This document shows, piece by piece, positions 11,901 to 50,459 of a stretch of 52,781 bases of DNA (positions are counted from its first letter, which is position 1; every line of letters begins with the position of its first letter). The notes under the pieces were generated by a model, which saw only the letters and a program-made list of their open reading frames with translations, did no database searches and had not been told where the DNA came from. Made by a program: the position numbers and the translations under genes. Source of the stretch: Candidatus Iainarchaeum sp. (lineage in GTDB: Archaea > Iainarchaeota > Iainarchaeia > Iainarchaeales > UBA10191); assembly GCA_030649735.1 (NCBI GenBank), contig JAUSFL010000040.1:1-52781 (forward strand), read 5' to 3'.

Positions 11901-14900
11901 TGTCTGCGCTTTCATTCAATTTTACTCCAATGTCCCAGCAGTTGTTGTAAATTTTTCCTTTAACAGGCTTTCCTATAAAGTCATTGAATTCAAACTTTGT
12001 CCTGTCAATTCCAATGCAGTCCCTGACCACATCAGCCGCTGATTGTATTGTGAACAAAAAGCTTGACAGTTCTTGCATGCTTTCTTGGCTGCCTTGAATT
12101 CTTCCGCTAAAGGTTGCTGTGTATCTTCCAACCCTATATCCTGCCTGAACTGTTATGTTCTTTTTTTCTCCAGACTTTAATGAAAAGCTTGATTGGTCAA
12201 CCTGCAGTGCTGAATCGGCTTCTGCCTCAAGCTCTATTGATTGCGCGCAAGTGTTTGTTATGCGGACTGTTGCGCTGCTTTGGCCCCATGCCATTTGATT
12301 GTAAGGCGATTGGCCGTAATTGTTCTGGTACTGATTATAGTATGGAGTGCTTGTGCTTCCATAATTCTGCGTATAAGGGTCTAGGTAAGGGCTTCTGTAC
12401 TGCGTGTCTGGATTGTACTGTGAATAGTAAGGGTTTGTGACTGCAGTTCCAGTAGTGTAAGGGCTGTTATTGTTGTATTGGTTGTATCCAGTTCCATAAA
12501 GGTTTGAGCTATTGTTGTATCCTGTTCCATAAGGGTTTGTTGAATCAACCAAGCCCACATTTCCAGTGTTTGGCACAATGTAGCTTGGAGTTGCTGTGCT
12601 GCTTTGGCTTGAAAAGTTTCCAGTGTTTGGCACAATGTATGATGGCTGGTTTCCCATTCCCCAGCTGTTGAATGGAGAATAGCTTGAGTTATAATTTCCA
12701 AGGCCTGTTCCGTAAGGGGTTGTTTGCAGGCTTGTGGTTGAAGCCGCGAATTTCACGCATTTTGTCAAGTCATTGACTGAAGCCGAGATTTTGATTTCTT
12801 GCTGTAATTCCTGGTCGCCATTCTTTGTCTTGTTCACTGCCTTGATTATGATTTTTGGAGTGCTTGCGCCTGCATCAATCTCTAATGGGTTGAATGTCAA
12901 AGTCATTTGGGTTTCTGACTTTTTTGGAATCAATGGCGCGACATCCCTGAACTGGTTTGACAGTTCAGGATCCTTGCTTTCAGGCAGTCCAGTGCTAAGC
13001 TTGAATTTTCCGATTTCTGACTGGTTTGCAAGCACGATTTTTGCCTGCAAATTGCTTAATTCAATGTCTTGCTCGTTGATTTTGCAAGTGTTCTTTAAAG
13101 TCAATTCAATGCTTTTTGCGTCATTGCTCGTGAAAATCTTCCATTCCGCGGGGTCAACTGTCAGGCAGTCTGTTGAATCAACTTCTTCCCCAAAACCCAC
13201 TGTAATAAACACTGGAACTCTTGCAACCCACATGCTGTAGTTCGGGTTTTCCACGGTAATGTCAATTGTTCCCTTGAATGTTGTCGGCTGCTGGATTGTC
13301 TTTCCCTTGTCTGTAATTTTCATTTTCACTAAAAATCCCGCGTTTCCGTCCCTTTCAAGCGTTATTCCTTCCTTTCCAGTCTCTGTCTCAAAACCGTCTG
13401 TTTGCGTGCTGTCAAGCGCAAAGGCAACATGCCCGTCCATTTTCGGGAACTCTATTTTTTTCACCATTAATGCAATTGGCGAAGAATTGATTATTTCCAA
13501 AGTCCTTTGCTTTTCTGAAGCCTCATTAATCACCAAGGTTTCCCTCAATTCTGAAGGATTGAACAATAGAATGTTTTCGCTGATTGTGACTTCTTTTGTG
13601 AAAGCCGCAAAGCCCTGCTTTTTCACTTCAATCAAAAGCTTTGCGTTGTTTGGCGGATTGTTCAGGCTGTACTGCGCAATGCCCTTGCTGTCTGTTATTG
13701 TGCTGTAAATCAAGTTTCCATTAAGCACAAAGTTCACTACTGCCCCTGGAATCGGGTTTGCCGAATTATTGTCCGAAGAAATTTCAGTCGCTTTCACAAG
13801 CAAGTTGTTTATAATGTAAGGAACGACTGTTTTTGGAATCAATTCAGCATTCAATTGCCTTGCAGGCTGAATGTCAAGCACTATTTCCTTTGCCTGAAGT
13901 TTTTCGCTTCCACTAGAAAGCTCTAAAATCAATTTTGTGGCGCCTTCGCCTTGCGTTTGGAATTCAACCCACCCTGAAACAACAGTTCCGCCGCTCAAGT
14001 TTCCCAAATTCACCTGCAGTTCGTTCCCTGAAGCAGTGCCGAAAGTCTTAATGCTGTAGTTTTGCAACGCGATTGCAGAGTCAGGATTTGAAATTTTCAG
14101 CATTGCGTTTGGCTTGTCAGAACTGCCCCTGTATGTTGTGCTGAAGTAAAGCCTGTAAGTTGTCGAAATTTTTGCGGAAAACTCGTCAAACAATGCCGTC
14201 TCTTCGCCTGTCGTCAAGTCTGTTATTTTGAAAATATTGCAGAAATTGTCAGAGCATAAAGTGCTTGGCCCGATGCTGAATTGGATGTTTTTTGTTTCAG
14301 CATACAATGACTGCTTGCCTGAAGAGCTTTCAGCGCTTCCTAAAACATCGTCTTTTGGAGAGCGCAAGTAGCCAGTGCTTTTTCCCCAAGCCCTGTGGCG
14401 CAATTCAACAGTCTTTCCCTTCTCTGAAGTTTCTCGAGTGTAAACTTCTGCCTCAATTTCATAAACTCCTTCCTTTCCGTTAGGTATGATAATGTTTGCC
14501 CATTTTGATTCTGACTGCGTCAAATTCTGCACGTCAGTCGCATAACCGTTTGGCGGATTGTAAGTCTTTCCTTTTACGATTGTTGCCTTTCCGCCCGCCT
14601 TGACTCCTTTAATGTAAATTGGGTCTGCTTCCACTTGCGTTGTTTCAGAACTGTCTGCAATTTCAGGCAGTCCAGTCCTTAAATGCGCTCCGATTTCAGA
14701 ATACTCCGAGCCTTGCGGCACTTTAAGCAAAAACTTTGCAGTGTATTTTTGTCCAGGGTTCAAAGAGTCTTGCAATTTTTCATCGCCCAAAAACAACGCG
14801 CTTCCCCCAACTGGCTCGAGCCTGAATGTTGGAATGTCCTTTGCCAATTGCACTTGCTTTTCAAAAGTAATGTCTTTTGCCATTTGGATTGGAATAGTAT

Positions 14901-16620
14901 AGTATGGCAAAAAATCCTGTCCTGAAGCCTGCAAGTATACTGTCTTGTCAGCTCGGACTTGAATGCTTGCCTTTCCATCAGTTCCCGCAGTCAATTCCTG
15001 GATTTTCTGGCCTGTTGAATTGTCAACAACAGCAATTGCCGCATTAGGCACTGGATTGCTGTCTTCATCAATTGCCGTGAAGTCTATTGTTCCAGAGCCT
15101 ATTGGAATTGTCAAAGTGAGCTGGTTTTCCTGCCTTGCAATGACGCTCACGTTAGGCTGGACTTTCTCGCCAAAGCCAGTCTTTAATGCCTTTATTATAT
15201 AAGTGCCTTCAGTAAGCCTGTCAAAAACAACAATGCCGTTGTTTCCAGTTGTTTTTTCATCAATTGTCGAGGCATCGCTTGACTTCAAAAGCTTTACTTT
15301 CGCTTGCTCTATAGCAAAGCCTTTCTCGTCAATTACTTTTACTGCCAGCGTGTTTGAGTTTTGCGCTGTTGCAGGAGTAAGGCTGACGCGCGTGTCTGCA
15401 GTGCTGATTGAAACCGCAACTCCAGTCATTTTCAAGAATGCCGGGTGGTCAATGCTTGCGGTGAATTGAACGTTTTCCGCAACCTTGAATTCTGCTTTTC
15501 CCTGCGCGTCAGAAAATTTTGAGCTTCCAAAAGCAGTTGTTCCCTTGAACAAGTCAATTTTTGCGTTTTCCACTGGAACTCCAGTGCTTGCGTCAAGAAT
15601 CAAGAAATTAATGCTTCCAATGCTGGTTTTTTGCATTATAATGTTGAAAGTTGTTGTTTCATTCTCTTTCACTTGCTGCGCCGCTGTTGCTTCGGCATAG
15701 TATTCTCCAGAATCGTCAGTCGCCTGCGCCTTGTAGTTTCCGATTGGAATGTTTTCAATCAATACGCTTCCAGTAGTGCCTGTAAAGCTTAAAGCGCTGT
15801 TGAAAGTGTCGCTTGCAGAAGCCGCCAATAACTGCACTTTCTTTCCAGCCAATGCCTTTCCATCAGAGTCTTTGACTGAAACCAATGCCTTTCCAACTCT
15901 TGCATTTGCCGCGCTCAAGTTAATCTGCAGGCTTTCAGTTGCGGGATCCAGTGAAATTTTGTCTCCGGTGATTCCTTGAGGGAATTGCACGTTCAAGTAG
16001 CCGCAGTCTTTTGGGATTGCGTCCAATAAAATTTGGCCATTGCTTGAAGGCTTTGTAACATTGTATTCTGCGCTGGAGCAGGAAAAGCTTAAAGTCAAAG
16101 TCCTGGTCTGGTCATAAAGCTTTCCTTCAGAATCAAAAAGCTTTATTGTACGAGCGTATACTTTGCTTATTTCAGAAAGGGCAAAATCCAGGCTTTCGCT
16201 GGAATTTTTTGGAGTGAATTTTTTTTCTATTGCAGTGTAATTGTCGCTTCTTCCAAGCCGCAATGTTATTTCAATTCCGGTCGGAACATTAATTGTGGTT
16301 CCGCCGCTTGCAGAAGTTTTCACCATGGGCTCGCTCAAGCTTTCATAAGTAATTGTAAAGCTTTCGCCGGAAATCCTTTGCTCGTTTGACGTCAAATAAA
16401 TTGTAACTGCAGACATTGGCTGCAGCAATGGCGCAAGCGCAAAAAACCACAATAATCCAATCGCAACAAGGCACAAGAGCAAGAACAATGGAAAGCTCGG
16501 AATGTTGTTTGCCTCAACAGCGTCAACTACCTTGTATACTGGAATTCCGTGCTTGTCAAGCCAGTCAAGCATTGCGTAGTATTTGTCTTCAATCCCTGTG
16601 TAAAATCCCACCAAAATCAC
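8902..16620 (-). CDS. Giant membrane-anchored multidomain surface protein B with Tyr/Asn/Gly-rich insert
   Basis: This 2572-aa paralogue of A and C has the cytoplasmic signature (residues 1-43, GIEDKYYAMLDWLDKHGIPVY, then IPSF), one membrane helix (about 44-66) and carboxypeptidase-regulatory-like modules to about residue 600. These are followed by the shared region containing SKWANI and the CX4C module (CSDNFC, about 788), and Cys-Cys Ig-like modules (CLTVDPAEW...NTC). The module from CVKFAASTTS to ITNTC is interrupted by a roughly 150-residue Tyr/Asn/Gly/Ser/Pro-rich segment (about 1298-1447). Further on are a CIGIDRTKFEFN...NNC module, AVPKILLDW (about 1866) with CDAAQFTIESL, and NIKFHALLVKDNYS matching protein A. 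The C-terminus is Pro/Gln/Ala-rich (PPSQPPEPKPPAQP), like a wall-spanning or flexible tail. The start is GTG at 16620; no strong Shine-Dalgarno is visible. A 156-base gap upstream contains TATA-like elements, so B may have its own promoter. Function is unknown; surface adhesin or scaffold is inference. Confidence 0.85.
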   Translation of the reverse strand: MILVGFYTGIEDKYYAMLDWLDKHGIPVYKVVDAVEANNIPSFPLFLLLCLVAIGLLWFFALAPLLQPMSAVTIYLTSNEQRISGESFTITYESLSEPMVKTSASGGTTINVPTGIEITLRLGRSDNYTAIEKKFTPKNSSESLDFALSEISKVYARTIKLFDSEGKLYDQTRTLTLSFSCSSAEYNVTKPSSNGQILLDAIPKDCGYLNVQFPQGITGDKISLDPATESLQINLSAANARVGKALVSVKDSDGKALAGKKVQLLAASASDTFNSALSFTGTTGSVLIENIPIGNYKAQATDDSGEYYAEATAAQQVKENETTTFNIIMQKTSIGSINFLILDASTGVPVENAKIDLFKGTTAFGSSKFSDAQGKAEFKVAENVQFTASIDHPAFLKMTGVAVSISTADTRVSLTPATAQNSNTLAVKVIDEKGFAIEQAKVKLLKSSDASTIDEKTTGNNGIVVFDRLTEGTYIIKALKTGFGEKVQPNVSVIARQENQLTLTIPIGSGTIDFTAIDEDSNPVPNAAIAVVDNSTGQKIQELTAGTDGKASIQVRADKTVYLQASGQDFLPYYTIPIQMAKDITFEKQVQLAKDIPTFRLEPVGGSALFLGDEKLQDSLNPGQKYTAKFLLKVPQGSEYSEIGAHLRTGLPEIADSSETTQVEADPIYIKGVKAGGKATIVKGKTYNPPNGYATDVQNLTQSESKWANIIIPNGKEGVYEIEAEVYTRETSEKGKTVELRHRAWGKSTGYLRSPKDDVLGSAESSSGKQSLYAETKNIQFSIGPSTLCSDNFCNIFKITDLTTGEETALFDEFSAKISTTYRLYFSTTYRGSSDKPNAMLKISNPDSAIALQNYSIKTFGTASGNELQVNLGNLSGGTVVSGWVEFQTQGEGATKLILELSSGSEKLQAKEIVLDIQPARQLNAELIPKTVVPYIINNLLVKATEISSDNNSANPIPGAVVNFVLNGNLIYSTITDSKGIAQYSLNNPPNNAKLLIEVKKQGFAAFTKEVTISENILLFNPSELRETLVINEASEKQRTLEIINSSPIALMVKKIEFPKMDGHVAFALDSTQTDGFETETGKEGITLERDGNAGFLVKMKITDKGKTIQQPTTFKGTIDITVENPNYSMWVARVPVFITVGFGEEVDSTDCLTVDPAEWKIFTSNDAKSIELTLKNTCKINEQDIELSNLQAKIVLANQSEIGKFKLSTGLPESKDPELSNQFRDVAPLIPKKSETQMTLTFNPLEIDAGASTPKIIIKAVNKTKNGDQELQQEIKISASVNDLTKCVKFAASTTSLQTTPYGTGLGNYNSSYSPFNSWGMGNQPSYIVPNTGNFSSQSSTATPSYIVPNTGNVGLVDSTNPYGTGYNNSSNLYGTGYNQYNNNSPYTTGTAVTNPYYSQYNPDTQYRSPYLDPYTQNYGSTSTPYYNQYQNNYGQSPYNQMAWGQSSATVRITNTCAQSIELEAEADSALQVDQSSFSLKSGEKKNITVQAGYRVGRYTATFSGRIQGSQESMQELSSFLFTIQSAADVVRDCIGIDRTKFEFNDFIGKPVKGKIYNNCWDIGVKLNESADTISLSEMSDRLEERIGGSPQVGMAGTARILGITTQAGSGLNGGTRQVLDFEMERDFRYRQAPEIDKTGKTFQQIGALRYWSNMGQYRVQTRATLSVRFIDTTGMQQMKPFEVTLEDLWRIGEMADALTSGNPKLDDLQKCINDVLNGNLDDKWFGGTDIKTYDPITEKIQKVLSISDQTCSTLDKLSELQLDKTDFGNGVIISAQVSGDGHNVTVTVNRANLATGQSVQIKGNITATLTSFVGKKPSGTSTLEFTAKKKVNIPYNFNVSKGIGQPLPPDTGTVNYAVQGCKQGPEAVPKILLDWKFESISKSTCDATYCDAAQFTIESLLKAKEVKPLVDAAKNSTEFTIDKKDYTITDEAFKANNNFRKASEIYRFLTKQVKISDGSKPDAASKDKFSALVFFLDNDSSKTILTRSLTNDEITKLDDSLKAAEASIASALKEPKEADKFNAFFTSLGTMQTLLKAMADTKTLGDNVLLQFNQSNTTELETYSGTRAEIGVSGKDSYYLMTLGEFKIMHDSLKKAIESTTTKPTTDAPTLERCNDVKEKATKCWIKPIDPNDTDHDKIDKMTEINIAFLKYMTANITVRIGVRNQAVMSEEDIATVLDNGARVDGEGANALNKKFYYENIKFHALLVKDNYSTVKAGFDKVYSSNYSDIPKVSENWTFNSDSTEEIAEAGDYNAVLDYDWSESTTENKDKVDIKFAKAKEFDKTRQKSAWYAVGFDGRVKSNDTGIAQTIILNDNEGTGKEAKANIAQVAAVNEFNPTSLLYNSTGFTEEYKKIGKVFELTSGSLTYYPTQKGEITAAITGTNAATNKGIEYRLKEDSTEVPATTLVYWNSSKNESQQALCNYLRPGQIPPYVRSLITGAAGTFKANLFLPVTRTYEFQLVCGSDSAIITVPDKQSVSAAGIQTSNGGGIVNLSTKANPLTIQKLLEEVKNKGKYCIKESDDGSKSEIYWKVDAPAASSVPQAPAAPSQPAQPPSQPPEPKPPAQPTRP
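12280..12725 (-). repeat. Tyr/Asn/Gly/Ser-rich low-complexity insert in giant protein B
   Basis: This is an in-frame segment of about 150 codons inside protein B, rich in Tyr, Asn, Gly, Ser, Gln and Pro, with repeated YGTGYN and SYIVPNTGN units. It interrupts a Cys-Cys beta module whose two halves (CVKFAASTTSLQ and ATVRITNTC) still fit together. The composition resembles prion-like, phase-separating or amyloid-like linkers. A comparable insert lies at the same place in paralogue C. Confidence 0.8.
12560..12639 (-). repeat. 23-bp direct repeat within the low-complexity insert
   Basis: An identical 23-base word beginning TTTCCAGTGTTTGGCACA occurs at 12560-12582 and again at 12617-12639, 57 bases (19 codons) apart and in frame. 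It encodes the repeated SYIVPNTGN unit. Loss or gain of one unit by slippage would keep the reading frame. Confidence 0.85.
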
Positions 16621-16776: not shown

Positions 16777-18252
16777 TCAGCCGTTCTCGCAAGAGTAAGT
16801 TTCATCACCGGGCATTGGGAGAACGCCTCCAGAGGAAGCGATAACTGAATTGCATTTTGCAAGCGTTGCCTGGCTTGCTGTCGAGTAACTGTCGCTGATT
16901 TTTATTTTGTAAACTTTGTCGCTTCCCCTTGCCTGGTTTACCTTGAATTGCGACAAGGTTTCGTTAAATATTAAAATCACTTCAATTCCTGAAGACCGGA
17001 CGCAAATTCCCTTGCCAGTGTCCTGGCTGTTTGCGATGAAAATTTCCTTTGTTTCAATTGTTTTGGTTCCGCCTTTGACAATGCTTCCTGCGGGAATTCC
17101 ATCAGGCCATAACTTCAGGCCGTCGGTTGGGGTTGGATCTATTGAATCGCTGTTTTCAACATGGAATGTTGTTGCCCCAGTCGCTGTTATGTACTGCCTT
17201 AACGCGTTTGCCATTTCATTAGAGCTTCCAGTATTGTATGTTGCAGGGCACGCGCTTGCCGGACTGCAATTTAATGCCACTTCTTCAAGCGAGTGGCTTG
17301 CTGCTGCCGCTCCTTTGGTGTTGGGGCATAAGTATCCTTTTCCATCAGGGCCTGGAAAATTGCTTTGGTTGATTGCAATTCCTTGGCTGTTTGGGCTTTG
17401 CCTGATTGAGCAGTCTGAATCGCACATTCCAAGCCCGATTTCGTTGAATTGGTTTGAGCTTGCAAAAACGTTTTCGTTCGCGATTTTTTTCGCTTTCCAA
17501 AGCGCCTTGAAAATCCTTAAAGGCGCGTAAATCCTGAGGTTTCCTTTTGGAAGGATTGGCTGTTTTATCACGCGGCCTGTTGCCTGGCTTTTCACGACAA
17601 TTTGCGGAAGCTGATTGTATTGCTGTGGAGTAAGGCTAGTCAAATTCAAGTTTATGTAGAACGTTCCTATGTCGCAGCTTGAATCACTGCATTTGATTGG
17701 CTCAAGCAAAGTGTTGTTTGCAATTCCAGCATCAGCCATTACTTTTATTGCTGTCTTGAATTTTGAAGTGTCGTTTGGATTGTCTTCATTAATGACCAAT
17801 TGAACGTCATATCCCTTGAAAGCGTAAGTTCCAGAGCCCCTGGAGATTATTCCAACCAAGTAATCAGACATTGCATTGGCAAACTGTTCTGTGGAAGTTG
17901 TTGTCGCGCCATCAGCGCTTTGAATTTCCTTGCCCCCAAGCTCTGCTTTTGCAAAGTCCGAGACCATTTGGTTCCAGTTTGATGCGGAAGTCCTGTCCAT
18001 TACGTAAAATTCGTTGGTTGGGTCTGTAATCCATTTTTCAAACTGGTACCTGACTCCAATATTGAATAACTGCAATGCGTCAGCGCGCGCCAAGTCCGCA
18101 ATGTTTTGCATTTCAGTCTGCTCGTCAATTGTTTCAATTGTCTGTGAGGAATTCCTTTCAGACTCAATCATGCTTTGAACAAGCACGAAAGCCAAAGTAA
18201 TAAGCACAAAGCTGACTAAAGCAGTGAATAAAGTGAAGCCTTTGGAATCCAT
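16777..18252 (-). CDS. Large prepilin-like secreted protein (class III signal peptide)
   Basis: With the ATG at 18252 the protein has 491 aa and begins MDSKGFTLFTALVSF. This is a five-residue leader, a Gly processing site and a hydrophobic helix of about 20 residues, as in type IV prepilins; the GFTL form is closest to the bacterial pilin signature. The conserved Glu at position +5 of bacterial pilins is Thr here. After the helix come a charged helix (ESERNSSQTIETIDEQ) and a large globular part with cysteines (CDSDCS; CSPASACP). At about 490 aa it is far larger than a typical major pilin, so it may be a minor or tip pilin. A TTG nine bases upstream (18261) is an alternative start, but the ATG gives the usual short leader. 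It lies 31-40 bases after giant C and before giant B. Processing by a prepilin peptidase is inferred. Confidence 0.75.
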   Translation of the reverse strand: MDSKGFTLFTALVSFVLITLAFVLVQSMIESERNSSQTIETIDEQTEMQNIADLARADALQLFNIGVRYQFEKWITDPTNEFYVMDRTSASNWNQMVSDFAKAELGGKEIQSADGATTTSTEQFANAMSDYLVGIISRGSGTYAFKGYDVQLVINEDNPNDTSKFKTAIKVMADAGIANNTLLEPIKCSDSSCDIGTFYINLNLTSLTPQQYNQLPQIVVKSQATGRVIKQPILPKGNLRIYAPLRIFKALWKAKKIANENVFASSNQFNEIGLGMCDSDCSIRQSPNSQGIAINQSNFPGPDGKGYLCPNTKGAAAASHSLEEVALNCSPASACPATYNTGSSNEMANALRQYITATGATTFHVENSDSIDPTPTDGLKLWPDGIPAGSIVKGGTKTIETKEIFIANSQDTGKGICVRSSGIEVILIFNETLSQFKVNQARGSDKVYKIKISDSYSTASQATLAKCNSVIASSGGVLPMPGDETYSCENG

Positions 18253-18292
18253 TAAACTCAAGAATTAGTGAAGGCAAAACAACTATTTAATC

Positions 18293-21200
18293 TTACGCCG
18301 CCCTGATTTCGCTGACAAAGCCCTTAATGTCTGAAGCATATTTGGAATTGTCTTTGTCAACATAGTTTGTCGCAATTTTTTCCACAGTGTCATTTCCGCC
18401 AGCAACGTAATTCGAGCTGTTTTTTATGAGCTTAAACCAGTCTTCAATTCCTTGCTCCCAAGAATTATATTTGCAAAACTTTGCATTATCGCTTGCCCTG
18501 GTTTCAAACTTTCCAGTAGGGCAAGCGCTTGAAAACTTGATGTTCCCAATTGCTTTTGTTTTGACAGCCATTCCATCAAGCCCGTACTGGGATTCTGCCT
18601 TGAAAAACGCAAGCGCAATTGCTGGGTCTATTCCATTCCTTAATCCTGCCGCGTAAAATGTTTTTCCAGTCCCTTTTGCCGGAGAATTCGCCCGCGCCAG
18701 GATTTTGTCAATTTTTTCTGCAGTTATTGAAGGCTGGCCTGTCACTTTGAGTTCTGTTCCCGGCGTTACTGCGGCAGGGCTTGCTGCTGTTCCAGTCGGA
18801 GAATACAATTTCAATTCAGTCTCATTATAGCTTCCATCACAGTTCTGCAGCCATTCTGCATTCGCAGGAGCTTTTGAAGGCTCGATTATTGAAAAGTCCC
18901 AAGCTTCGCTCTTTCCCTTGCTTTTTGAAACAACTACTTTGTACGCTTGGTTTTTGACAAGCTGGAAATCCCAGCTTTTGTTTCCCTTTTCGTCAACAGT
19001 CACTAAATTTTTTAGTTGCATGTTTTGGACTGTTTTAGTGTATACCAAATACCCTGCAGCGTTAGCTAACACGCCATTCAAGATGCTTCCGCCAAACCTG
19101 AGCGTTTTTCCAGTCTTGCTTGCTTTCCAAAATGAAGCCCATTGCCCAAACTTTGACTGGCTTACTGTTTTAATTGTTGCAGCGCCTACTTTTGTATTGC
19201 TGCTTTCAGTGATTAGCTTTGAAAGATTTGTTCTTGAAGAAGCTCCCGCAACCCCTTTTCCTTCAATCTTGGTTATTGTCCCAAGCCGTGATTTTAGCGT
19301 CTTTTTCTCTGCTTCCAATGCAGTCCTTGCAGAACCTGCAGGCATTGTAGCGAGCTTTGAATCAATTTCAGCAATTCTTGAGCTTATTGTTCCAGAATCC
19401 AATAATTTTAATTGCTGCAACATTTCTTCTCTTGCAGTCTCTAAAGCTGTTGTTTCCTTTGCTGAAAGCCCGCCTTTCTTCAGCAATTCATCAATTTTTT
19501 TGATTTCCTCGCCCGCGCTATTGGCAAAAGCATCAACATTGCCGCTTGCTTTTCTTGCGGCTTCTTGAAGTTTGGTTTCGGCTTCTGCTATTTTTGGCGC
19601 GAACTGGTCGCTTTCAGTTATTGCATTATTTAATTGGTCAATGTATGTTCTGTCCCAGTTAAGTGTCGGATCGTTTGAGATTCTCGAAAGCTCTGTTTTT
19701 AATTCTGAAACTGACTTAAATGACCTTGTAGGCCTTGTGCCAACTCCTTGGATGGTCAATGGCGCTGCTTTTTTCAGTTTTGCAAGGCTTGCTTCTGCAG
19801 CCTGGTATTCTTTAAGGCCTGAAATTGCATTATCCGGAGCAACCGGATTTATAGGCGGGTTTTCCACTGTCTCTCCAATCCAGCTTTTTATTAATGGAAT
19901 AATGCCTCTCATTGTTTGCTCGCCGACAGTCGCGCTGACTCCTGCCCCGAACAATCCTGCTTTTTGCTGGTCGCCTTCTTTTGCAATTCCTAAAGCCTTC
20001 AGTCCTGAATAGCTCAAGTTCTTGAATCCTTGCAGTATAGAATCCAGTGCTGAAAGAATTGGGTTTTTAGTGTCAGAAAATCTTTTCATTCCCAAATCAA
20101 TCATTCCAAAAACAAGAGGCACTCCGCAGTCAATTCCTGTTGAAACCCCACTGGCAACAATGCTTCCGCCCAAGGTCACTAAAGCGCCAAGCAAGTCAAG
20201 CGAAACGTGAGTTGCAATGCAGGCTACAGTATAGCCTGCAAGGCCTGTTCCTTCAATTCGTCCAATTTCCTTATTGCCTGCAGTAGAGTCTTCAGAGTTT
20301 ATTCCAGTAGCAGGGTCATAAAAGTGCTTTCCATTAAGGAATGGCCTTAATTTTTCATCAATTTCCATTCCTTGGATAATGTCTCCAACTTTGGCTCCTT
20401 CCGGAGGGTTCGGAGGGTTTTTCCAGGATGGAACAAAGTAGAATTCTTTCTTTTCCCCGTCTTTTAGATTTAGCGCAGTGAGTTTGGCAAACAATCCGTC
20501 CTGTGTTTGAGGATGAATTGCGCAAGCGCTGAGCTTTACTTCGCTTGTTGTGGAAAATTGCTTGACTCCTAGATTGGTTGTGTCAAATGCCTTTATGGTT
20601 ATTGAATTGTTTCCTGCATTTGCAAACGACTTTGTTCCTTTAGTGCAGAGCATTAATTCTGTAATGTTTGCTTTTTCTTTTTTTCCAGCAATTGTTTTTG
20701 AAACAAGGAAAACTCTGTCTTCTGGCGCTAAAGGCTTTTTGTTGGTCTTATCTGCTGTGATGAAAGTTTGCTGCCAGTCAATATAGTCAGGCAAGTCTTG
20801 CGGTTTTTCAACGTTCACTCCAATTCTCTGGTTTGCCAAGTTTCCTGAAATCGTGAATGCACAGCATGACGGCGTGTTTGCGAAGATTTTCAGCAAATTG
20901 TCCGAAGCAACAACCTGCGGCTTTACTGCAGTTGAGTTTGTGGTTTGCTTTTCAAATTCTTGAATACAGGAGCTTATTTGCAGCTCGCCAAAGCTTTCAG
21001 AGGCTGAAGTGATCCTTAAGGTTTTTTCGTCTGCTGTAATGCAGCTTCCTTTTGCCGGAGCATTGCTTTTCAATCCATTGATTGCGCGAACCGCTTCTTT
21101 CAAGAATTCTTTCTTTTTCGCTTCCGAAGCCAATGCGTTTTCATTAATGAAAGCGTCCACTGTGACCGGCGCTGTTGGAATTCCGTTAAAGCCAAGGCTT

Positions 21201-24200
21201 ATTTCAACAATTCCTTGAGTGATGCTTTTCTTGCCAAGCAAGAGCTTGTTTGTCGAGCTGTTTTGCACAAAGCGGTCTGGCTTTCCAAACAATCCTTGCG
21301 CTATTTCTTTTGCCGAGTCTTCAAGGCCTGCTTCTGTTGAATCGACTGTTCCAAGCCAGCTTGACTTGTTGCTTGCGTAAGACAGTGTTGAATCTGCCGG
21401 CAAAAAATTCTGGAAATTCTGGATTTTTGCGTCGCATTCCGCAGTGTCTTTTTTCCCTAAAAGAATGACTCCGACTTTTTCTCTACCGCTTTGAATCTGG
21501 CCTGCAATGACATCGACTGCCCCGTCAATCCTGATGCTGTATTTTCCGCAGCTCCTGAATTGCGGTATTCTGATTTGCCCTGCAAATCCAGTTCCTGCTC
21601 CGACTGCCTCGATTATTGGCTCGCCTTCTTTAATGTCGCGGTAAATGACTTGCGAGATTTTTACTGAAGCGAAAGCGTCATTGCTTAATTTTGCCTGCAA
21701 TAATTCAGGGCTAAGCAAGTCGTTCTGGAAGTAAATCGTGTAAGTTTCCGGCTTTACTCCAAGCTCTGAAAAACTGCACGCCCGCGGGTTTGAAGTGCAG
21801 TATTGCGTGCTTTTTCCTTTCGCTAGAGTTGCCTGCTGGGCTTCAGAGACTTTTTTAGCGATTTTTTCAGCCAAAAAGTCTGCCAATTGGTCTGCGTCAC
21901 AGTAGCCGTTCGAGCAGTCTTTTCCAGAAGCTATTTTCGGGAACTTTACTGTTTTCTTTTTTGTCGCGTCTTCGCATGTTGGAATTTCAGCCTGCGCGCT
22001 TGTAACTCCTTCTGCAGAGTCTGCCGCTGTTTTTCCAAGCTTTACTGTCAAATTGATTGGCTCTGTCTGGATGCGCTTTCCGCTCCGGATTAAAGCGCCG
22101 TAAAATATTAGCGGCGAAGTAGTGTCGATTTCGTCCTTTTTCAAAAGCCTTAATTGTATTTTTGCTTTTCCATTCACTGGAATTGCCGCCGGGCCTGCAA
22201 TCAATGCAAGCTGGTTTGTTCCAATAGTTTTGGGCTCAATGTCTGTAATGCGCACTTCTTCAAGGCAAAAGTTTGAAATCGTGATTTCTGTTGTTTTCGC
22301 GCCTTGGCCTGTCATTTCCTCAATCATGTCCACTTCTTTTGGGGAAACCTGCAGGCAGCTTGGCGCGCTTGCGTGAATGAAAACATTCACTGTTTTCAGC
22401 GTGTATTCTTTGCCGTCAATTGTTCCCTTAATGTCAATTATTTGCCTTAGCACTTTGCTTTTGTCAACGTCTGCCTTTACAACAACCAATGCTGGGGGAT
22501 AAACTGACTGGCCTGGAGGCAGTGTAAGATAGCTTCTTTCAGGAACCAGCCTTAATTCAATTCCTTCGCCATACCCGCTTCCAATCTGGAAACTCAAATT
22601 TTGGATTGCCGTGTTTCCAATATTGCTCACGAACAATGGGGTTGAAGTTTCAATTCCGCTGGACGCGTAAATGTTCAAGGTGTCCGGCGCTTGGATTGCG
22701 AACTGGATGCTTTGCAAATTAACAGTCAATGGAATTGACTTTGACAATTGGTCCGCGTTGAATTCAATGTCAAACCCGCTGCTGCTCCTGCTGTAAAACG
22801 CCTGGCCTATTGTGTTTTCAATGTCAACAATTATTGTCTTTGACTCTCCTTTCTGCAAGTCAGTGTCAGGAACTGTAACCCTGATTCCAGAGTTTTCAAC
22901 CTGGCTTTTGACTTTGGCGATTAAGTTCAGCTCTTCTTCGCAATTGTTTGTCAATTGGACCTGGATTTGCCTTGCGCTTCCAGAAAAGCCCGAATTGTAA
23001 TTGTTTTGCTGTTGTGGGTAATAGCTTTGATTGTATCCTGAGTAATAGTTTGAATTGTACTGGCCGCTTGACTGCGGGTAATAGTTTGAATACCTTGAGC
23101 CAGTGCTTGTTGGAAGCGAGTAGCCTTGATTGTAGTTTAAATTGGAATACTGTGAATTGGAGTAATTGTTTTGCGAAGAATCCATTGGATTGTAGTAAAG
23201 CGTTGCCTGCAAAGAAGCTGGGTTTATTGTAAGGCAGCTTGAGTCAAGTTTTTGATTGTAAGAAATATTAACTTTGGTTGTTGCAGTTACTGGAATGCTG
23301 TCTCCTTGAATGCCTGAAGCCTGCAGTTGAACTGTAGTGTGCGCTGTTGTTGCAGTTCCATTGTATGATGCAGTCAACTGCATTGTTTCTGTCGAGTTTG
23401 CCATCATTGAGCTTATTGCAGTATAGTCCAAAACGAAAGTTCCGTCAAATCCTTTGGGCTTTATTGCCTCAATGATCAAGTTGCTTATTTCTTTGCTTGA
23501 ATTGTTTTTTATCACAAGCTCTGCTGTCGCTGTTTTTGCAGCGCTTGGAATCCTGATTTCCAATTCTGCAGGCAATTCCAGGACTCCCGGGCTTGCAATA
23601 GTGTATGAAGCGCTTAAAGGCCTGAAGCCTGGCGCAGTGATTTCAGCAGTGTACAAGCCTGCCTTGAAGACTCCCTTCACCAGGTATTTTCCGTACTTTC
23701 CCTTGTTCAGCCAGGCGCTTCCCAAAATCCTGAAAACTTCATTGCCTGAAACTGAATCCTTGAAAATTATTGTCGCGTTCTCGACTGGCTCTCCGTCTGC
23801 AGAATTCAGGATTACGCTGAAATTCTTTCCTGCCTCGCCCTGCAGTGGATTGAATGAGGCTTTCATTATTTTTTCTTCAAAAATGTTGAATGCAAAATTT
23901 TCTGTCTTTGAGCTTTTGCCAGTGACTTGCAATGCAATTGAAGAGTTTCCAACCGCAAGGGCCTTGAAGTAAATCCTTGCCTTTGTTTCCTTTCCTTTCT
24001 CTACAGTAATGTCCTTTACCTGGATTCCAGTGTCTTGCGAGTTAGTGTCTGGAATTTCAGTGAAAACTTCAATGTCGCTTCCTTGAAAGCCTATTTTTGG
24101 GCTTTCCCTGTTTGTTGACGCGTTAAGCACTGCGTTCAAAGTGTCTTTTCCTGAAAGCGCTACTTCCAAGGCGTAAACATTCCCTTTCACTGCCTTGAAG

Positions 24201-26629
24201 TCTTTTGCTTCAAAGCTGTTGAATCCTGCATCCAAGAACTTGAAGCTTGCGCATAATTCCTTGCTGCAGCTTGACTGCTCTGCATTGAAGACTGTTATTT
24301 CTTCATTGCTTGTTTCAGCATACAATCCGAGCTTTTGATTGTTGAATTCGGCAAGCGCCAATGTGGAGTCTGTCGGAGTCCTGTAAAACTGGCTGCTTAT
24401 CAAAGACCATGCCCTAAAATGCACTTCTTGCTTGAGCGCTGCGGCGTCTGAAAGCCTTGCTTGAATTTTGATTATTTTTGTGCCTTTAGGCTTGTCAAAA
24501 TACAATTCCACAAACTTGTTTGCCTTTCCTTCGCTTCCTTTGTTCAAGAAGTCTATTGTTTCATTGCCCGGCTTTGGAGATGCATTGTAAGTTCTTCCAT
24601 AAAAGTGATTTTGCACTTCGGCGTTGAATCCAGTGATTGCAATCTCTTGGCTTTCGGCATTTTTTATTCCATCGCTTCCCACTCTGACATGAATTCCGCC
24701 CTTGTATTCCCCTTCAGGCCACACTGTCTCAAAAACCAAAAATCCTTCCTGCCCTTTGACAAGCCCTTCAACTGTCTCTCCGTTCAGGCTTTCCAGGCGC
24801 AAGAGCCTGATTTCCGGAGCAAGGCCGTTGTTTTCTTTCTGGCCAATGCGCAATTCTTGCATTGCGGCTCCAGTCAAGGCCAGTGATTCGTCAAAAGTCT
24901 TTCCATCAGGCAATTCAACATGCACTTTAACGCTCTTGTTTCCCAAAGAGTCAAAAACAACTTTTGCATTGCTGATGTTTCCGTCAAATAGCACTGTTCC
25001 AGAGTCAGTCGTGATTTTCACATTGCCTTCATTTATTGGATTGCCGTTCTCGTCAAGGATTGTCAATTCTATAATTTCTGAAGGCGCTGCAATTTGTATT
25101 TCAATCCTGTTCAATGAGCCGGCGTCCAAGATTGCGTTTCCATCGCCTGTTGCAGTGTCTTTAGAGGCTTTCACGTAAAGGTTTGTTCCGGCCTTGAAAG
25201 CAGACCCGTAATATCCTGCGACATCAGTGAACGAGTCAGGCATTCCGAAAGGCAATAGGTCGCTTGTTGTCTGCTCGAAAAAAGTCAAGGCAGCGTTTGC
25301 CACCGGGCTTTCTTTTGAGTCAATTGTGAAAACTGCAGCGTTTGCCGCATTGCCTGCAATGCTTCTTTCCATTTCAAGCCTGAATGTTGGCGAAGTTTTC
25401 GGGAAAATTTTTTGGCTGACAGGCAAGTACCCGTCCTTGAATGCACTAATATAATAGCCGCTTTCTGAATTCAAGTCCTTGAATTCCACAAAGCCTCCAA
25501 AGCCAGTCATGTTCGCGTCCACTTTTTCAGCGCGCGCATTGAACAAAGTGATTAATGCTTCGCTCAAAACATTTGATGATTCCTTGTCAATTGCAGTAAC
25601 GCTTATTGTTTTTCCGCCCGCTTCCAAGAAAACATTCACTGTCTCGGCATCATTCCTTAATGTCAGGAAATCAGCTTCTCCGGCAGTCGAGTCAAAAGTC
25701 GCATAGCCTTCCTTGCTTGCAACCCACTTGATGCTTTTTCCCTTTCCAATTTGCTCCAAAAGCTCGCCTTGCACTGCAATGTCAGAGCTTAATTCTGCAG
25801 TCGAGTCTTTCTCGAACACTTTAATCAAAACTCCGTCAATCAATTGCCTTGTTTCATTGTCAAAAACCCTGAAAGTTATTGAAGCCAGTCCATTCGCGCC
25901 AGTGCTTGAAGCAACAAGCTTTACAGTACTTGCGTTTTCTGAATCAAAATTAAGGCTTTGCGCAGAATCCAAATACCCGTCTGCCTTGACTGTAATCCTG
26001 ATTGGCTTTCCTTCAGGCACTCCAATGAAGCTCCAGCTTCCGTCATTGTTCAAAGTGCCGGCGATTTTCTTGTCTTCGACTTCAGCAAAGACAGCCGCAT
26101 TCTTGATTGTGTCGCCAGTGACAGAGTCAACAAGCCTGATTTTTGCGGTCAATAATCCCGCAATCCTGTTTAATGTAAAGCTTTTCTGCAACGCGCTTTC
26201 ATTGATTGTAAGGTCCAAAGGGGCATTTTCAAAGCCTTCCTTTTGCGCCATCAACGAAAGCTTTGTTCCAAAATCAACTCCCTTCAATTCGATTTTAGTG
26301 TCAGAGTTTGTGGGCTTGTAGTACAATTGCATTCCGCTTTTCGCGTTGGTTATCGAGAATGATACATCATTCAATGAATTCCTTGCGTCGTCCTGAAAAT
26401 TCACTGTCAAAAAAACGCTTGCAGGGCTTGAAAAAAACAATAGCCAGGCGCCCATTATCAGAAAGACCAGGGCGCCGACAGTGAATGGAAACGCCGGAAT
26501 TCCCTTGCCTTCCAAAAATTCAGTGTAATTGTAGACTGGAATTCCTTTTTTTTCGAAAAAATCCATTATTCCGAAAAAGCCGTCTTCAAGCTTGGTGTAA
26601 ATTCCAGAAAATAAGTTTCCGATTCCCAT
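18293..26629 (-). CDS. Giant membrane-anchored surface protein C with C-terminal lysozyme/glucosaminidase-like domain
   Basis: This 2778-aa paralogue of A and B starts with the shared cytoplasmic signature (TKLEDGFFGIMDFFEKKGIP, then IPAF) and one membrane helix (about 50-70). Carboxypeptidase-regulatory-like modules run to about residue 600, the CX4C module (CSKELC) lies at about 787, and Cys-Cys Ig-like modules follow. One of these (CLTINPASLQ...QLTNNC) carries a Tyr/Asn/Gln-rich insert at about 1141-1220. Further on are CSNGYCDADQL, a hydrophobic stretch (ATHVSLDLLGALVTLGG), a Lys/Glu/Ala-rich coiled-coil-like part, and a final lysozyme-like domain (about residues 2635-2778). The chosen ATG (26629) has GGTG upstream; an in-frame TTG at 26635 would add two residues. 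The gene follows the archaeosortase by about 70 bases. Known family: terminal domains of this kind cleave glycan backbones of cell walls. The idea that C acts on another cell's envelope is inference. Confidence 0.85.
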   Translation of the reverse strand: MGIGNLFSGIYTKLEDGFFGIMDFFEKKGIPVYNYTEFLEGKGIPAFPFTVGALVFLIMGAWLLFFSSPASVFLTVNFQDDARNSLNDVSFSITNAKSGMQLYYKPTNSDTKIELKGVDFGTKLSLMAQKEGFENAPLDLTINESALQKSFTLNRIAGLLTAKIRLVDSVTGDTIKNAAVFAEVEDKKIAGTLNNDGSWSFIGVPEGKPIRITVKADGYLDSAQSLNFDSENASTVKLVASSTGANGLASITFRVFDNETRQLIDGVLIKVFEKDSTAELSSDIAVQGELLEQIGKGKSIKWVASKEGYATFDSTAGEADFLTLRNDAETVNVFLEAGGKTISVTAIDKESSNVLSEALITLFNARAEKVDANMTGFGGFVEFKDLNSESGYYISAFKDGYLPVSQKIFPKTSPTFRLEMERSIAGNAANAAVFTIDSKESPVANAALTFFEQTTSDLLPFGMPDSFTDVAGYYGSAFKAGTNLYVKASKDTATGDGNAILDAGSLNRIEIQIAAPSEIIELTILDENGNPINEGNVKITTDSGTVLFDGNISNAKVVFDSLGNKSVKVHVELPDGKTFDESLALTGAAMQELRIGQKENNGLAPEIRLLRLESLNGETVEGLVKGQEGFLVFETVWPEGEYKGGIHVRVGSDGIKNAESQEIAITGFNAEVQNHFYGRTYNASPKPGNETIDFLNKGSEGKANKFVELYFDKPKGTKIIKIQARLSDAAALKQEVHFRAWSLISSQFYRTPTDSTLALAEFNNQKLGLYAETSNEEITVFNAEQSSCSKELCASFKFLDAGFNSFEAKDFKAVKGNVYALEVALSGKDTLNAVLNASTNRESPKIGFQGSDIEVFTEIPDTNSQDTGIQVKDITVEKGKETKARIYFKALAVGNSSIALQVTGKSSKTENFAFNIFEEKIMKASFNPLQGEAGKNFSVILNSADGEPVENATIIFKDSVSGNEVFRILGSAWLNKGKYGKYLVKGVFKAGLYTAEITAPGFRPLSASYTIASPGVLELPAELEIRIPSAAKTATAELVIKNNSSKEISNLIIEAIKPKGFDGTFVLDYTAISSMMANSTETMQLTASYNGTATTAHTTVQLQASGIQGDSIPVTATTKVNISYNQKLDSSCLTINPASLQATLYYNPMDSSQNNYSNSQYSNLNYNQGYSLPTSTGSRYSNYYPQSSGQYNSNYYSGYNQSYYPQQQNNYNSGFSGSARQIQVQLTNNCEEELNLIAKVKSQVENSGIRVTVPDTDLQKGESKTIIVDIENTIGQAFYSRSSSGFDIEFNADQLSKSIPLTVNLQSIQFAIQAPDTLNIYASSGIETSTPLFVSNIGNTAIQNLSFQIGSGYGEGIELRLVPERSYLTLPPGQSVYPPALVVVKADVDKSKVLRQIIDIKGTIDGKEYTLKTVNVFIHASAPSCLQVSPKEVDMIEEMTGQGAKTTEITISNFCLEEVRITDIEPKTIGTNQLALIAGPAAIPVNGKAKIQLRLLKKDEIDTTSPLIFYGALIRSGKRIQTEPINLTVKLGKTAADSAEGVTSAQAEIPTCEDATKKKTVKFPKIASGKDCSNGYCDADQLADFLAEKIAKKVSEAQQATLAKGKSTQYCTSNPRACSFSELGVKPETYTIYFQNDLLSPELLQAKLSNDAFASVKISQVIYRDIKEGEPIIEAVGAGTGFAGQIRIPQFRSCGKYSIRIDGAVDVIAGQIQSGREKVGVILLGKKDTAECDAKIQNFQNFLPADSTLSYASNKSSWLGTVDSTEAGLEDSAKEIAQGLFGKPDRFVQNSSTNKLLLGKKSITQGIVEISLGFNGIPTAPVTVDAFINENALASEAKKKEFLKEAVRAINGLKSNAPAKGSCITADEKTLRITSASESFGELQISSCIQEFEKQTTNSTAVKPQVVASDNLLKIFANTPSCCAFTISGNLANQRIGVNVEKPQDLPDYIDWQQTFITADKTNKKPLAPEDRVFLVSKTIAGKKEKANITELMLCTKGTKSFANAGNNSITIKAFDTTNLGVKQFSTTSEVKLSACAIHPQTQDGLFAKLTALNLKDGEKKEFYFVPSWKNPPNPPEGAKVGDIIQGMEIDEKLRPFLNGKHFYDPATGINSEDSTAGNKEIGRIEGTGLAGYTVACIATHVSLDLLGALVTLGGSIVASGVSTGIDCGVPLVFGMIDLGMKRFSDTKNPILSALDSILQGFKNLSYSGLKALGIAKEGDQQKAGLFGAGVSATVGEQTMRGIIPLIKSWIGETVENPPINPVAPDNAISGLKEYQAAEASLAKLKKAAPLTIQGVGTRPTRSFKSVSELKTELSRISNDPTLNWDRTYIDQLNNAITESDQFAPKIAEAETKLQEAARKASGNVDAFANSAGEEIKKIDELLKKGGLSAKETTALETAREEMLQQLKLLDSGTISSRIAEIDSKLATMPAGSARTALEAEKKTLKSRLGTITKIEGKGVAGASSRTNLSKLITESSNTKVGAATIKTVSQSKFGQWASFWKASKTGKTLRFGGSILNGVLANAAGYLVYTKTVQNMQLKNLVTVDEKGNKSWDFQLVKNQAYKVVVSKSKGKSEAWDFSIIEPSKAPANAEWLQNCDGSYNETELKLYSPTGTAASPAAVTPGTELKVTGQPSITAEKIDKILARANSPAKGTGKTFYAAGLRNGIDPAIALAFFKAESQYGLDGMAVKTKAIGNIKFSSACPTGKFETRASDNAKFCKYNSWEQGIEDWFKLIKNSSNYVAGGNDTVEKIATNYVDKDNSKYASDIKGFVSEIRAA
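18296..18731 (-). other. Lysozyme/glucosaminidase-like domain at the C-terminus of giant protein C
   Basis: The last 140 or so residues run ITAEKIDKILAR, GTGKTFYAAGLRNGIDPAIA, FFKAESQYGLDG, AIGNIKFSS, NSWEQGIEDWFKLI, VEKIATNYVDKDNSKYASDI. This order (helix with 'G.DPA.A', catalytic-type Glu in 'KAESQYG', 'GNI', 'W..GI.DW..LI', and a late Tyr followed by Asn/Asp) is that of bacterial lysozyme-fold glucosaminidases and lytic transglycosylase relatives. The candidate catalytic Glu codon is at 18593-18595. Two Cys (ACPTG, FCKYN) could form a disulfide typical of secreted versions. Confidence 0.72.
22970..23205 (-). repeat. Tyr/Asn/Gln-rich low-complexity insert in giant protein C
   Basis: About 80 codons rich in Tyr, Asn, Ser and Gln (YSNYYPQSSGQYNSNYY; YYPQQQNNYNSG) interrupt the Cys-Cys module between CLTINPASLQATL and RQIQVQLTNNC. 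The location matches the insert in paralogue B, though the two inserts do not align residue by residue. Confidence 0.8.
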
Positions 26630-26700
26630 TCGCAAGCACCAATCAACTATAAGCTAAGTATATAGTGTTCAATAAGTTAAAATAAAGCAGCCCGAGATAT

Positions 26701-27261
26701 TTAAAGCTTCTTTTCAATTCTGGCTTTGGTGGCTTTCCTGAACCACACGAAATAAAACCCGGCAATCACTATCAGCAGGCTCAGCCTGAAGAAAACATCA
26801 TGCGTCAATTCCGCGGTTTGGACATTGGTCCCGAACAATTGCATTATTGTAACAAAAATTCTCAATTGGTTGAATGCAAACCCAAAAATTAGCGCCCCGA
26901 TTGCCCCGTAAATTCTTTTCTTCCACGCAATTCCAAGGCTTGCGAGAATTGCGCTTGCAAGAAGCGCGGTTTCAAGCCAGCCAGTGCACAAGTCTGAAAT
27001 TTGGATTTGGATTCCATGCACTTTCAAAAACACGCCGTCAGTGTTTTCAAGGACTGTTACTTTTGCGCTGTCAAAGCTTTGCAAGACTTTCGCGCTCGAG
27101 CCCGCAGTGAAAAGCTCTATGTTCTGCCAGCCAATCGCAAAGACCGCACCGTAATATATCAGCAAGAACGCCAAAATCCATGCGATGAGGAATTTTCCGG
27201 TTTTTGCAATTTCTTTCCTGTCAAAACCCAGTCCCTTGCCTTTTTGCTTTCTTGATTTCAT
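26701..27261 (-). CDS. Archaeosortase/exosortase-family transpeptidase
   Basis: This 186-aa integral membrane protein has an exosortase-type active-site layout: Cys92 in SDLCTGWLETALL, Arg134 in FNQLRIFVTI and His154 in ELTHDVFFRL, spread over the last helices as in archaeosortases. Hydrophobic helices lie near residues 22-46, 96-112, 116-131, 133-145 and 158-172, after a very basic N-terminus (KSRKQKGKG). Family members cut C-terminal sorting signals (motif, membrane helix, basic tail) and transfer the protein to a lipid or other envelope acceptor. It starts the minus-strand surface cassette, so giants, pilin or other secreted proteins here may be clients. The giants lack C-terminal tails, whereas the product of 43085-47623 has one. 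The ATG start appears leaderless, with a TATA element 27-30 bases upstream shared with the divergent gene. Exact archaeosortase subfamily is not assigned. Confidence 0.85.
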   Translation of the reverse strand: MKSRKQKGKGLGFDRKEIAKTGKFLIAWILAFLLIYYGAVFAIGWQNIELFTAGSSAKVLQSFDSAKVTVLENTDGVFLKVHGIQIQISDLCTGWLETALLASAILASLGIAWKKRIYGAIGALIFGFAFNQLRIFVTIMQLFGTNVQTAELTHDVFFRLSLLIVIAGFYFVWFRKATKARIEKKL

Positions 27262-34682: not shown

Positions 34683-34703
34683 TGTTATGTTCAAATCCTT
34701 TGA

Positions 34704-49541: not shown

Positions 49542-50459
49542 TTAAAGCGCTCCTGCAATATAGAATGCGGCAAGGCCTGCTGGAATCAAAAGCGCTGCGT
49601 AAATCACGCTTTTTTTCAGGTTGCTGTCAATGAATGCGGCAAAAATACTTGCAAGAATCGCAAACTCTATTATGTAGAGTTGGGATGTTGTCAGCGCTGT
49701 TTGAATCAATTCTTTCCTTTGCGCTTCCGCAAGCCCGATGCCTAGTTCTGAAACTTGCGCGAAATCAAATCCTTTAATCAATCCGGAAATCAAGCCCAAA
49801 ACCAAAGGCACTATTAATGCTCCGGCAAACAGCAAGGTCATTTTTTGCAGAGCAAGCGCAGCGCTTCTTTCCTTCAAAATCGTGCGCGTTTCAATAATGT
49901 CTTCCGCGGTTTCGCGAAACACTGAACTCAAGTCATTTCCTGACTCAAATCCTTGCTTCAAAAGCAATGCCATTCTCTCTACAATTGGGGAATTGCATCT
50001 TTTTGAAATATTGCCCAATGCTTCCTGCACTGCCGCGCCTTTTTCAACTTCCAATTTTGCTTTCTCGAATTCCTTGCTCAATGAGCCAAAATCCTGCCTT
50101 GAAAGGTATTCTGCAATGTTTGAAAAGCTCGAGTTTGAAGGCATTGAAGCAGCCTGCAAAAGCACGTCCGGAACTGCCTCTTCAATTTCGCGCTTGCGCT
50201 TTTCAAAAACAAGGCTTTGAAAAAAATAATTTGCAAATAATGGGACAATGAATGCAATTATTGGAAGCGCGAAAAGGAATTCTTCTCCCAATTGCAGTTC
50301 AAAAGCAAGCGCAAGCCCAAGCAAGAGAATCAGCGCGCCTTCAGCAAGCGAGCTTTCAAAAAACTTTTTCAGGCTATTGCGCGGATTGTTTTGCAAAAGC
50401 ATTGCCTCAAAGTCTTCTGCCTTTTCCTTTCCAAAAAATTTTTCAATCATTTTTCTCAC
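49542..50459 (-). CDS. TadC-like single T2SF-domain membrane protein
   Basis: This 305-aa protein has an N-terminal cytoplasmic helix, a membrane helix pair (about residues 40-85), one T2SF domain (EEAVPDVLLQAASMPSNSSF ... RMALLLKQGFESGNDLSSVF) and two to three C-terminal helices. It has a single T2SF unit, unlike the two-unit platform at 34783. Its start overlaps the stop of the preceding T2SF gene by four bases. Together they form a TadB/TadC-type pair on which a pilus fibre would be built. It differs from the first system, so the window encodes two pilus-type platforms. Confidence 0.85.
   Translation of the reverse strand: MRKMIEKFFGKEKAEDFEAMLLQNNPRNSLKKFFESSLAEGALILLLGLALAFELQLGEEFLFALPIIAFIVPLFANYFFQSLVFEKRKREIEEAVPDVLLQAASMPSNSSFSNIAEYLSRQDFGSLSKEFEKAKLEVEKGAAVQEALGNISKRCNSPIVERMALLLKQGFESGNDLSSVFRETAEDIIETRTILKERSAALALQKMTLLFAGALIVPLVLGLISGLIKGFDFAQVSELGIGLAEAQRKELIQTALTTSQLYIIEFAILASIFAAFIDSNLKKSVIYAALLIPAGLAAFYIAGAL

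Follow-up and report, generated by a model that had tools for sequence, protein, structure and literature searches.

Introduction

What would a tiny archaeon that itself lacks a wall of the bacterial type gain from a wall-cutting enzyme at the far end of a giant surface protein? This question is raised by the window analysed here, a stretch of 52,781 nucleotides from Candidatus Iainarchaeum sp. with three giant genes (A, B and C; Table 1). According to the initial annotation, the C-terminus of giant C resembles glucosaminidases and lytic transglycosylases, has a candidate catalytic Glu in the motif KAESQYG, and might act on the envelope of a neighbour or on a pseudomurein-like polymer. The window was compared with a phylum set of 87 genomes, covering one main order and some twenty families. 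All of the genomes compared are metagenome-assembled, and the domain structures are predicted.

Table 1. Features of the giant C locus, in window positions
Feature	Position	Strand	Basis
Giant A, 2,791 aa, same anchor as giant C, without hydrolase tip	19..8394	-	anchor search, Pfam
Giant B, 2,572 aa, same anchor as giant C, without hydrolase tip	8902..16620	-	anchor search, Pfam
Pilin-like protein, 494 aa, hydrophobic class III-type N-terminus, between giants C and B	16777..18261	-	homologs in same slot, E 1e-24 to 1e-140
Giant C, 2,780 aa, start codon TTG in the ORF list	18293..26635	-	ORF list; orthologous position in relatives
Predicted GH73-like glucosaminidase domain, giant C residues 2631-2780	18296..18745	-	Pfam PF01832, AF2 model, LytB superposition
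Codon of predicted catalytic Glu2681 (KAESQYG)	18593..18595	-	12/12 homologs; aligned to LytB Glu585
Short module immediately preceding the tip, ~residues 2559-2605	18821..18961	-	common to other giant C tails, comparison by eye
Second hydrophobic stretch, Cys-containing, residues 2135-2177	20105..20233	-	hydropathy scan
Beta-sandwich arm, best CarboxypepD_reg repeat (residues 167-239)	25919..26137	-	Pfam PF13620 1.7e-16
N-terminal anchor: ~50-aa leader and one transmembrane segment (hydrophobic, residues 43-78)	26411..26635	-	alignment A2, hydropathy
Exosortase/archaeosortase-like membrane protein adjoining giant C	26701..27261	-	Pfam PF09721 1.2e-5, just under cut-off
Type II/IV secretion (pilus) ATPase, T2SSE	28330..30606	+	Pfam PF00437 5.5e-19; kept in locus of relatives
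Pilus platform protein, T2SSF-like	34783..37155	+	Pfam PF00482 0.0033, below cut-off

The tip domain of giant C

The Pfam family PF01832 (Glucosaminidase) matches the last ~115 residues of giant C with 40.4 bits against a curated cut-off of 30.2 (E 5e-10 for the C-terminal piece), and the whole-protein score is also above the cut-off. This tip is the single match to the family in the window's genome (1.28 Mb, 92.7% completeness; 40.9 bits), and a score of only 40 bits is modest. Next to the window sequence, related genomes provided homologs for an alignment of twelve (A1), in which eleven columns are invariant, including the Glu of KAESQYG (residue 2681, 12/12), the GN of a GNI motif, a Trp and a Tyr. 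Paired cysteines are present in the domain as well.

AlphaFold2 modelled the domain with a pLDDT of 87 and a pTM of 0.83, using an alignment of the window and related-genome loci only. Searching the PDB with this model using Foldseek gave five matches with E < 0.001, all of them LytB-, Auto- or FlgJ-type peptidoglycan hydrolases (E 2e-4 to 8e-4). In VIA-align, the model superposes on the GH73 enzyme LytB of Streptococcus pneumoniae with Z 17.4 (2.1 Å over 136 residues), followed by AtlE (Z 13-14) and FlgJ-type enzymes (Z 11-12), and a Ralstonia chitinase is also among the fold matches. A phmmer search of the PDB sequences with the single window sequence found no match, and the homolog profile was needed for matches. 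In the profile alignment, Glu2681 stands opposite LytB Glu585 (numbering from the title of PDB entry 7pj4), the letter being Q in that E585Q mutant entry. By this equivalence, Glu2681 would lie in the active site.

These comparisons support a lysozyme-superfamily, GH73-like glucosaminidase domain with the predicted catalytic Glu in place, so both the domain and the candidate residue of the initial annotation held up on comparison with solved structures. Its domain boundary needs a small correction: the span 18296-18731 covers a real domain but misses the first few residues, and 18296-18745 is the better choice. A chance occurrence of KAESQYG was rejected, as profile, fold and Glu all agree. 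The tip shares its fold, catalytic Glu position and profile with the GH73/PF01832 glucosaminidases LytB, FlgJ and AtlE. It differs from them in ending a 2,780-aa anchored archaeal protein in which no wall-binding repeats were found, and in having only ~20% identity to the solved members.

Anchor, arm and topology

Giants A, B and C can be aligned to one another over their N-terminal 75 residues (alignment A2), and this anchor occurs in 81/87 genomes of the phylum, including 25/25 high-quality ones, mostly in several copies per genome. Given long enough contigs, the anchor-bearing frames are typically ~2,300-3,400 residues long. The anchor signature agrees with the initial reading of a membrane-tethered enzyme on a giant archaeal protein, and the genome is placed in the Iainarchaeota (= Diapherotrites, DPANN), in line with the DPANN affiliation that the initial annotation considered. 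Near the N-terminus of giant C, three stretches in all match CarboxypepD_reg. A search for cell-wall-binding domains in giant C found none among the Pfam families at E up to 1. Long low-complexity stretches rich in Tyr, Asn, Gln and Ser were also seen in the arms of giant C (~residues 1200-1290) and giant B (~residues 1330-1450).

The second hydrophobic stretch (residues 2135-2177) has counterparts in giant C of two relatives (G012 and G014). A single membrane crossing at this point would place the last 600 residues of giant C in the cytoplasm, and because of this stretch the topology is the weakest step of the mechanism proposed below. Stand-alone homologs of the tip have hydrophobic, signal-peptide-like N-termini (by eye), which together with the paired cysteines favours a tip that would lie outside the cell. 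Residues 2135-2177 may also form a membrane hairpin or membrane-insertion element.

A conserved pilus locus

The gene order T2SSF, T2SSE, exosortase-like, giant C, pilin, giant B, giant A is found whole or nearly so in the compared stretches of six relatives (G002, G010, G012, G013, G016 and G029), and partly in other genomes, where shorter stretches were compared. In these six, a homolog of the exosortase-like protein lies in the same neighbourhood. T2SSF-like homologs adjoin T2SSE in the relatives (E 1e-212 to 1e-251). This recurrent order makes giant C part of a conserved locus linked to type IV pili, in which it is syntenic throughout the phylum, and it may also be physically coupled to the pilus. 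Neither this locus nor the prevalence of the lysozyme fold among giant C tips (see below) had been part of the first reading of the window.

Bacterial contamination was rejected as the source of the tip domain: the anchor and the locus are phylum-specific, and the near-complete one- or two-contig genomes G013 and G012 also contain this domain at the corresponding locus. In a tree, archaeal homologs and those of Chloroflexota are separated (99/99), with the bacteria sampled via one peptide pattern.

Some further genes of the window were noted. Between the pilus genes lies a 1,343-aa subtilase (Peptidase_S8; 30663-34694, minus strand) with a weak dockerin-like C-terminus below the cut-off. At 49542-51199 (minus strand), two further membrane proteins resemble T2SSF/TadB-TadC halves by eye. 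Despite the exosortase-like gene nearby, no obvious C-terminal sorting tail was seen in giants A-C.

The usual giant C tip and the enzyme-bearing tips

The ends of 81 other giants were compared, 67 of which reach a stop codon within the compared stretch, and no glucosaminidase was found on these 67 complete tails. Instead of it, giant C ends in many genomes with a helical domain of ~130 residues, for which a profile of its own matches 32/87 genomes. Ten of the usual tails were searched with Pfam, none of which matched a wall-hydrolase family, and a profile-profile comparison gave no significant match to the glucosaminidases (probability 3.5%). The AlphaFold model of this usual tip is confident (pLDDT 90, pTM 0.86, five models alike). 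Of its VIA-align matches in the PDB, the fifty entries listed are all lysozyme-superfamily or cell-wall hydrolases (best Z 11.2), led by goose-type lysozymes and MltF (Z 11), where it should be considered that middling Z values are common for helical folds. Foldseek retrieved the same families with a probability near 1 at the top ranks, yet with E values of 0.1 or worse. The usual tip is thus probably homologous to the lysozyme superfamily, the predicted fold being the sole link to the glucosaminidases.

At the catalytic position of the usual tip, 27/30 homologs have no Glu (Lys in 9, Gln in 8, others) and 3/30 keep it. Set against the Glu in 12/12 glucosaminidases, this loss makes the usual tip look like a pseudoenzyme, whose role is probably limited to recognising or binding a wall polymer. 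Judged from sequence, G002 may have a Glu-bearing, SLT-like variant, for which Pfam gave no match.

Three families have intact wall-cutting modules on giant C, either replacing the usual domain or behind it. In the window's genome (G000), the glucosaminidase occupies the place of the usual tip. G012 and G014 retain the usual domain (profile 2e-10 and 1e-7, respectively), with hydrolases behind it. In G012 these are a glucosaminidase region, which scores strongly with the A1 profile but stays below the Pfam cut-off, and Amidase_2 (3.5e-29); in G014 they are NlpC/P60, Amidase_3 (2.8e-20) and Glucosaminidase (2e-10). Between the T2SSE gene and giant C, the same locus of G012 and G013 also contains a stand-alone glucosaminidase gene, whose product in G013 additionally has Amidase_3 and a PKD domain. 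The tip and the stand-alone domain of G012 are nearest neighbours in the tree (96/89). This pattern suggests that enzyme tips were recruited repeatedly and locally, in the family of the window's genome and in at least two others, apparently independently. Because giant C of a genome from the same genus (G001) ends just before the tip, the tip enzyme is dispensable. A single origin of the enzyme tips was also considered and rejected (AU p 0.025 for G000 and G012, 0.036 with G014 included), a result that is only suggestive given the short alignment and long branches.

Substrate and proposed role

Amidase_2, Amidase_3 and NlpC/P60 act on bacterial murein by family definition. Amidase_3 was found in 4/87 and Amidase_2 in 2/87 genomes, and 4/6 of the amidase genomes also have a glucosaminidase (hypergeometric p 0.007). 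A second candidate wall-cutting gene of the window's genome encodes a 486-aa protein with Amidase_3 (contig C46:54446-54991, plus strand; locus L223 1033-2490). Murein is favoured over pseudomurein by the partner domains in homologous tips and neighbouring genes (N-acetylmuramoyl-L-alanine amidases and NlpC/P60) and, for other DPANN, by VanY and M15. The proposal of the initial annotation is thereby narrowed: action on the envelope of a neighbour is kept as a proposal, with bacterial murein favoured as the substrate, and its pseudomurein-like polymer is disfavoured. A role as host-interaction weapon or penetration tool, which the annotation put forward for the case of a DPANN symbiont, is at most a possibility.

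Giant C is therefore best described, with some confidence, as a probable membrane-anchored murein hydrolase aimed at bacterial neighbours, which would belong to a contact apparatus linked to type IV pili and present throughout the Iainarchaeota. The anchor would sit in the archaeal membrane and the long beta-sandwich arm would extend outward, so that the C-terminal tip could meet a neighbour. There, the GH73-like tip would cleave the murein glycan strands of a touching bacterium, with Glu2681 as the acid catalyst, and so open or weaken the wall at the contact site, whether this bacterium is a host, prey or a competitor. Such thinning of the wall might serve attachment, nutrient access or killing. 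Export with an outward topology, catalysis, murein as the substrate and a benefit to the archaeon are all presumed in this scheme. Several of the results above count against it: no wall-binding domain was found in giant C, the tip might be cytoplasmic, giant C of G001 does without the enzyme, none of the 67 other complete tails has it, and the Pfam score is modest.

A rather unlikely alternative is that the enzymes serve scavenging instead of attack, the tip and secreted hydrolases digesting murein debris or dead cells and so feeding amino sugars and peptides to an archaeon with a reduced genome. Relatives do have multi-enzyme murein-degrading proteins that would suit such a diet: one archaeal protein combines GH3 with Amidase_3 (L225 1021-3591, G015), and two frames of Nanoarchaeota/Woesearchaeota, 1,770 and 2,477 aa long (L029 1-5310 and L037 3-7433), stack Amidase_3, C39, VanY, Glucosaminidase and NlpC/P60. 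Both of these frames end at contig edges, at least N-terminally. No Iainarchaeota anchor was found in the contigs of these giant wall-degrading proteins, where the reading frames are broken by the contig ends. The stand-alone glucosaminidase with its signal peptide would fit scavenging too, but this form already serves that role, and feeding would not call for an enzyme tethered to a 2,600-residue arm that is encoded in a pilus locus.

Less probable still is a housekeeping role, in which the lysozyme fold would be a building block of the pilus complex, with the enzyme acting on the archaeon's own surface glycans. The prevalence of the Glu-less fold as the usual tip and its conserved position in the pilus locus favour such a role, but the intact Glu of 12/12 GH73 homologs counts against it, and the co-occurring muramoyl amidases would have no substrate in an archaeal surface. 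Furthermore, no peptidoglycan transpeptidase was found in 6/6 carrier genomes tested, including that of the window. Mur ligase-like proteins gave one match each in G012, G013 and G014, which is a small doubt, and none in G000. Given the absent transpeptidases in the six carriers and the lack of a Mur ligase in G000, remodelling of an own wall is unlikely.

A substrate other than bacterial murein, such as methanogen pseudomurein or chitin-like polymers, is very improbable. The lysozyme superfamily includes chitinases, one of which (from Ralstonia) is among the fold matches, but the closest solved matches are murein glucosaminidases, and the partners Amidase_2, Amidase_3, NlpC/P60, VanY and M15 are murein-cutting families. 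Pseudomurein is without the muramic-acid beta-1,4 strands that are cut by the glucosaminidase family, which counts against it. In its favour, cultivated DPANN all depend on archaeal hosts in the account given by PMC11291902; for the Iainarchaeota, no report of a host was found in the open-licence literature. A tip that only recognises its target without catalysis, comparable to the ordinary giant C tip that has lost its Glu, is hardly credible, since this tip and 11 homologs retain every motif that is invariant in the active family, the Glu among them.

Returning to a murein hydrolase aimed at bacterial neighbours, a broader version of this reading is possible but doubtful: a phylum-wide pilus-linked contact apparatus aimed at bacteria, not archaea, whose lysozyme-fold tip would in most species be a murein sensor derived from a dead enzyme, re-armed several times with one, two or three live enzymes in a row. 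If true, the Iainarchaeota with such an apparatus would live as episymbionts of bacteria or prey on them. The predicted tethering of a murein hydrolase to a conserved surface apparatus is a concrete hint that some Iainarchaeota act on bacteria, and the live tips illustrate a possible route for re-arming a dead lysozyme-fold tip.

Comparison with known systems

Secreted archaeal peptidoglycan hydrolases are already known. Woldo and Danwoldo of Halogranum salarium kill bacteria (PMC12352652), and Danwoldo has PF01832 as does the giant C tip, both being archaeal proteins with a proposed use against bacteria. However, Woldo and Danwoldo are freely secreted (Tat signal) and have PG-binding domains (PMC12352652), whereas the predicted enzyme of giant C is tethered and encoded in a pilus locus. 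According to the survey rule of that study, the catalytic and the cell-wall-binding domain must be in the same protein; giant C, in which no cell-wall-binding domain was found, falls outside this definition of a modular hydrolase. The membrane-anchored giants would thus join the known secreted enzymes as a group missed by such a survey. The architecture of a giant in a pilus locus seems to be a new arrangement among such enzymes, and no description of one with a lysozyme-fold tip was found in the open-licence literature.

In Myxococcus xanthus, the Kil/Tad pilus with exchangeable tips kills prey (PMC8460266, PMC12075869). Both systems link pilus machinery genes to exchangeable tip proteins for contact with bacteria, a use that is proposed for the giants, and pilus ATPase and platform genes are present in the giant C locus as in Kil/Tad (T2SSF being supported by its conserved neighbours). 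The Kil tips differ in being minor pilin complexes, whereas the giants have an anchor of their own. In the giant C locus, the gene separating giants C and B encodes a pilin-like protein. The text of the Kil paper does not mention peptidoglycan. For DPANN, 'vampiristic' gene sets have been described in which murein transglycosylase genes are read as a sign of attack on bacteria (PMC9723730). Those enzymes are GH23 in Woesearchaeota, some accompanied by a pore-forming toxin gene, and no giant tethered tip is described in the portion of PMC9723730 considered here.

Several other arrangements of wall-cutting genes were observed. In the 486-aa Amidase_3 protein on contig C46, the segment that follows resembles RlpA by eye. 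In family f17 (L007-L010), fusion proteins of ~1,000 aa carry a glucosaminidase upstream of a segment containing the metalloprotease motif HELGH; of two HELGH-region proteins scanned, only L010 gave weak Reprolysin matches. In G021, an SLT transglycosylase protein directly adjoins a 339-aa glucosaminidase protein (L018 285-3206 and 3226-4242).
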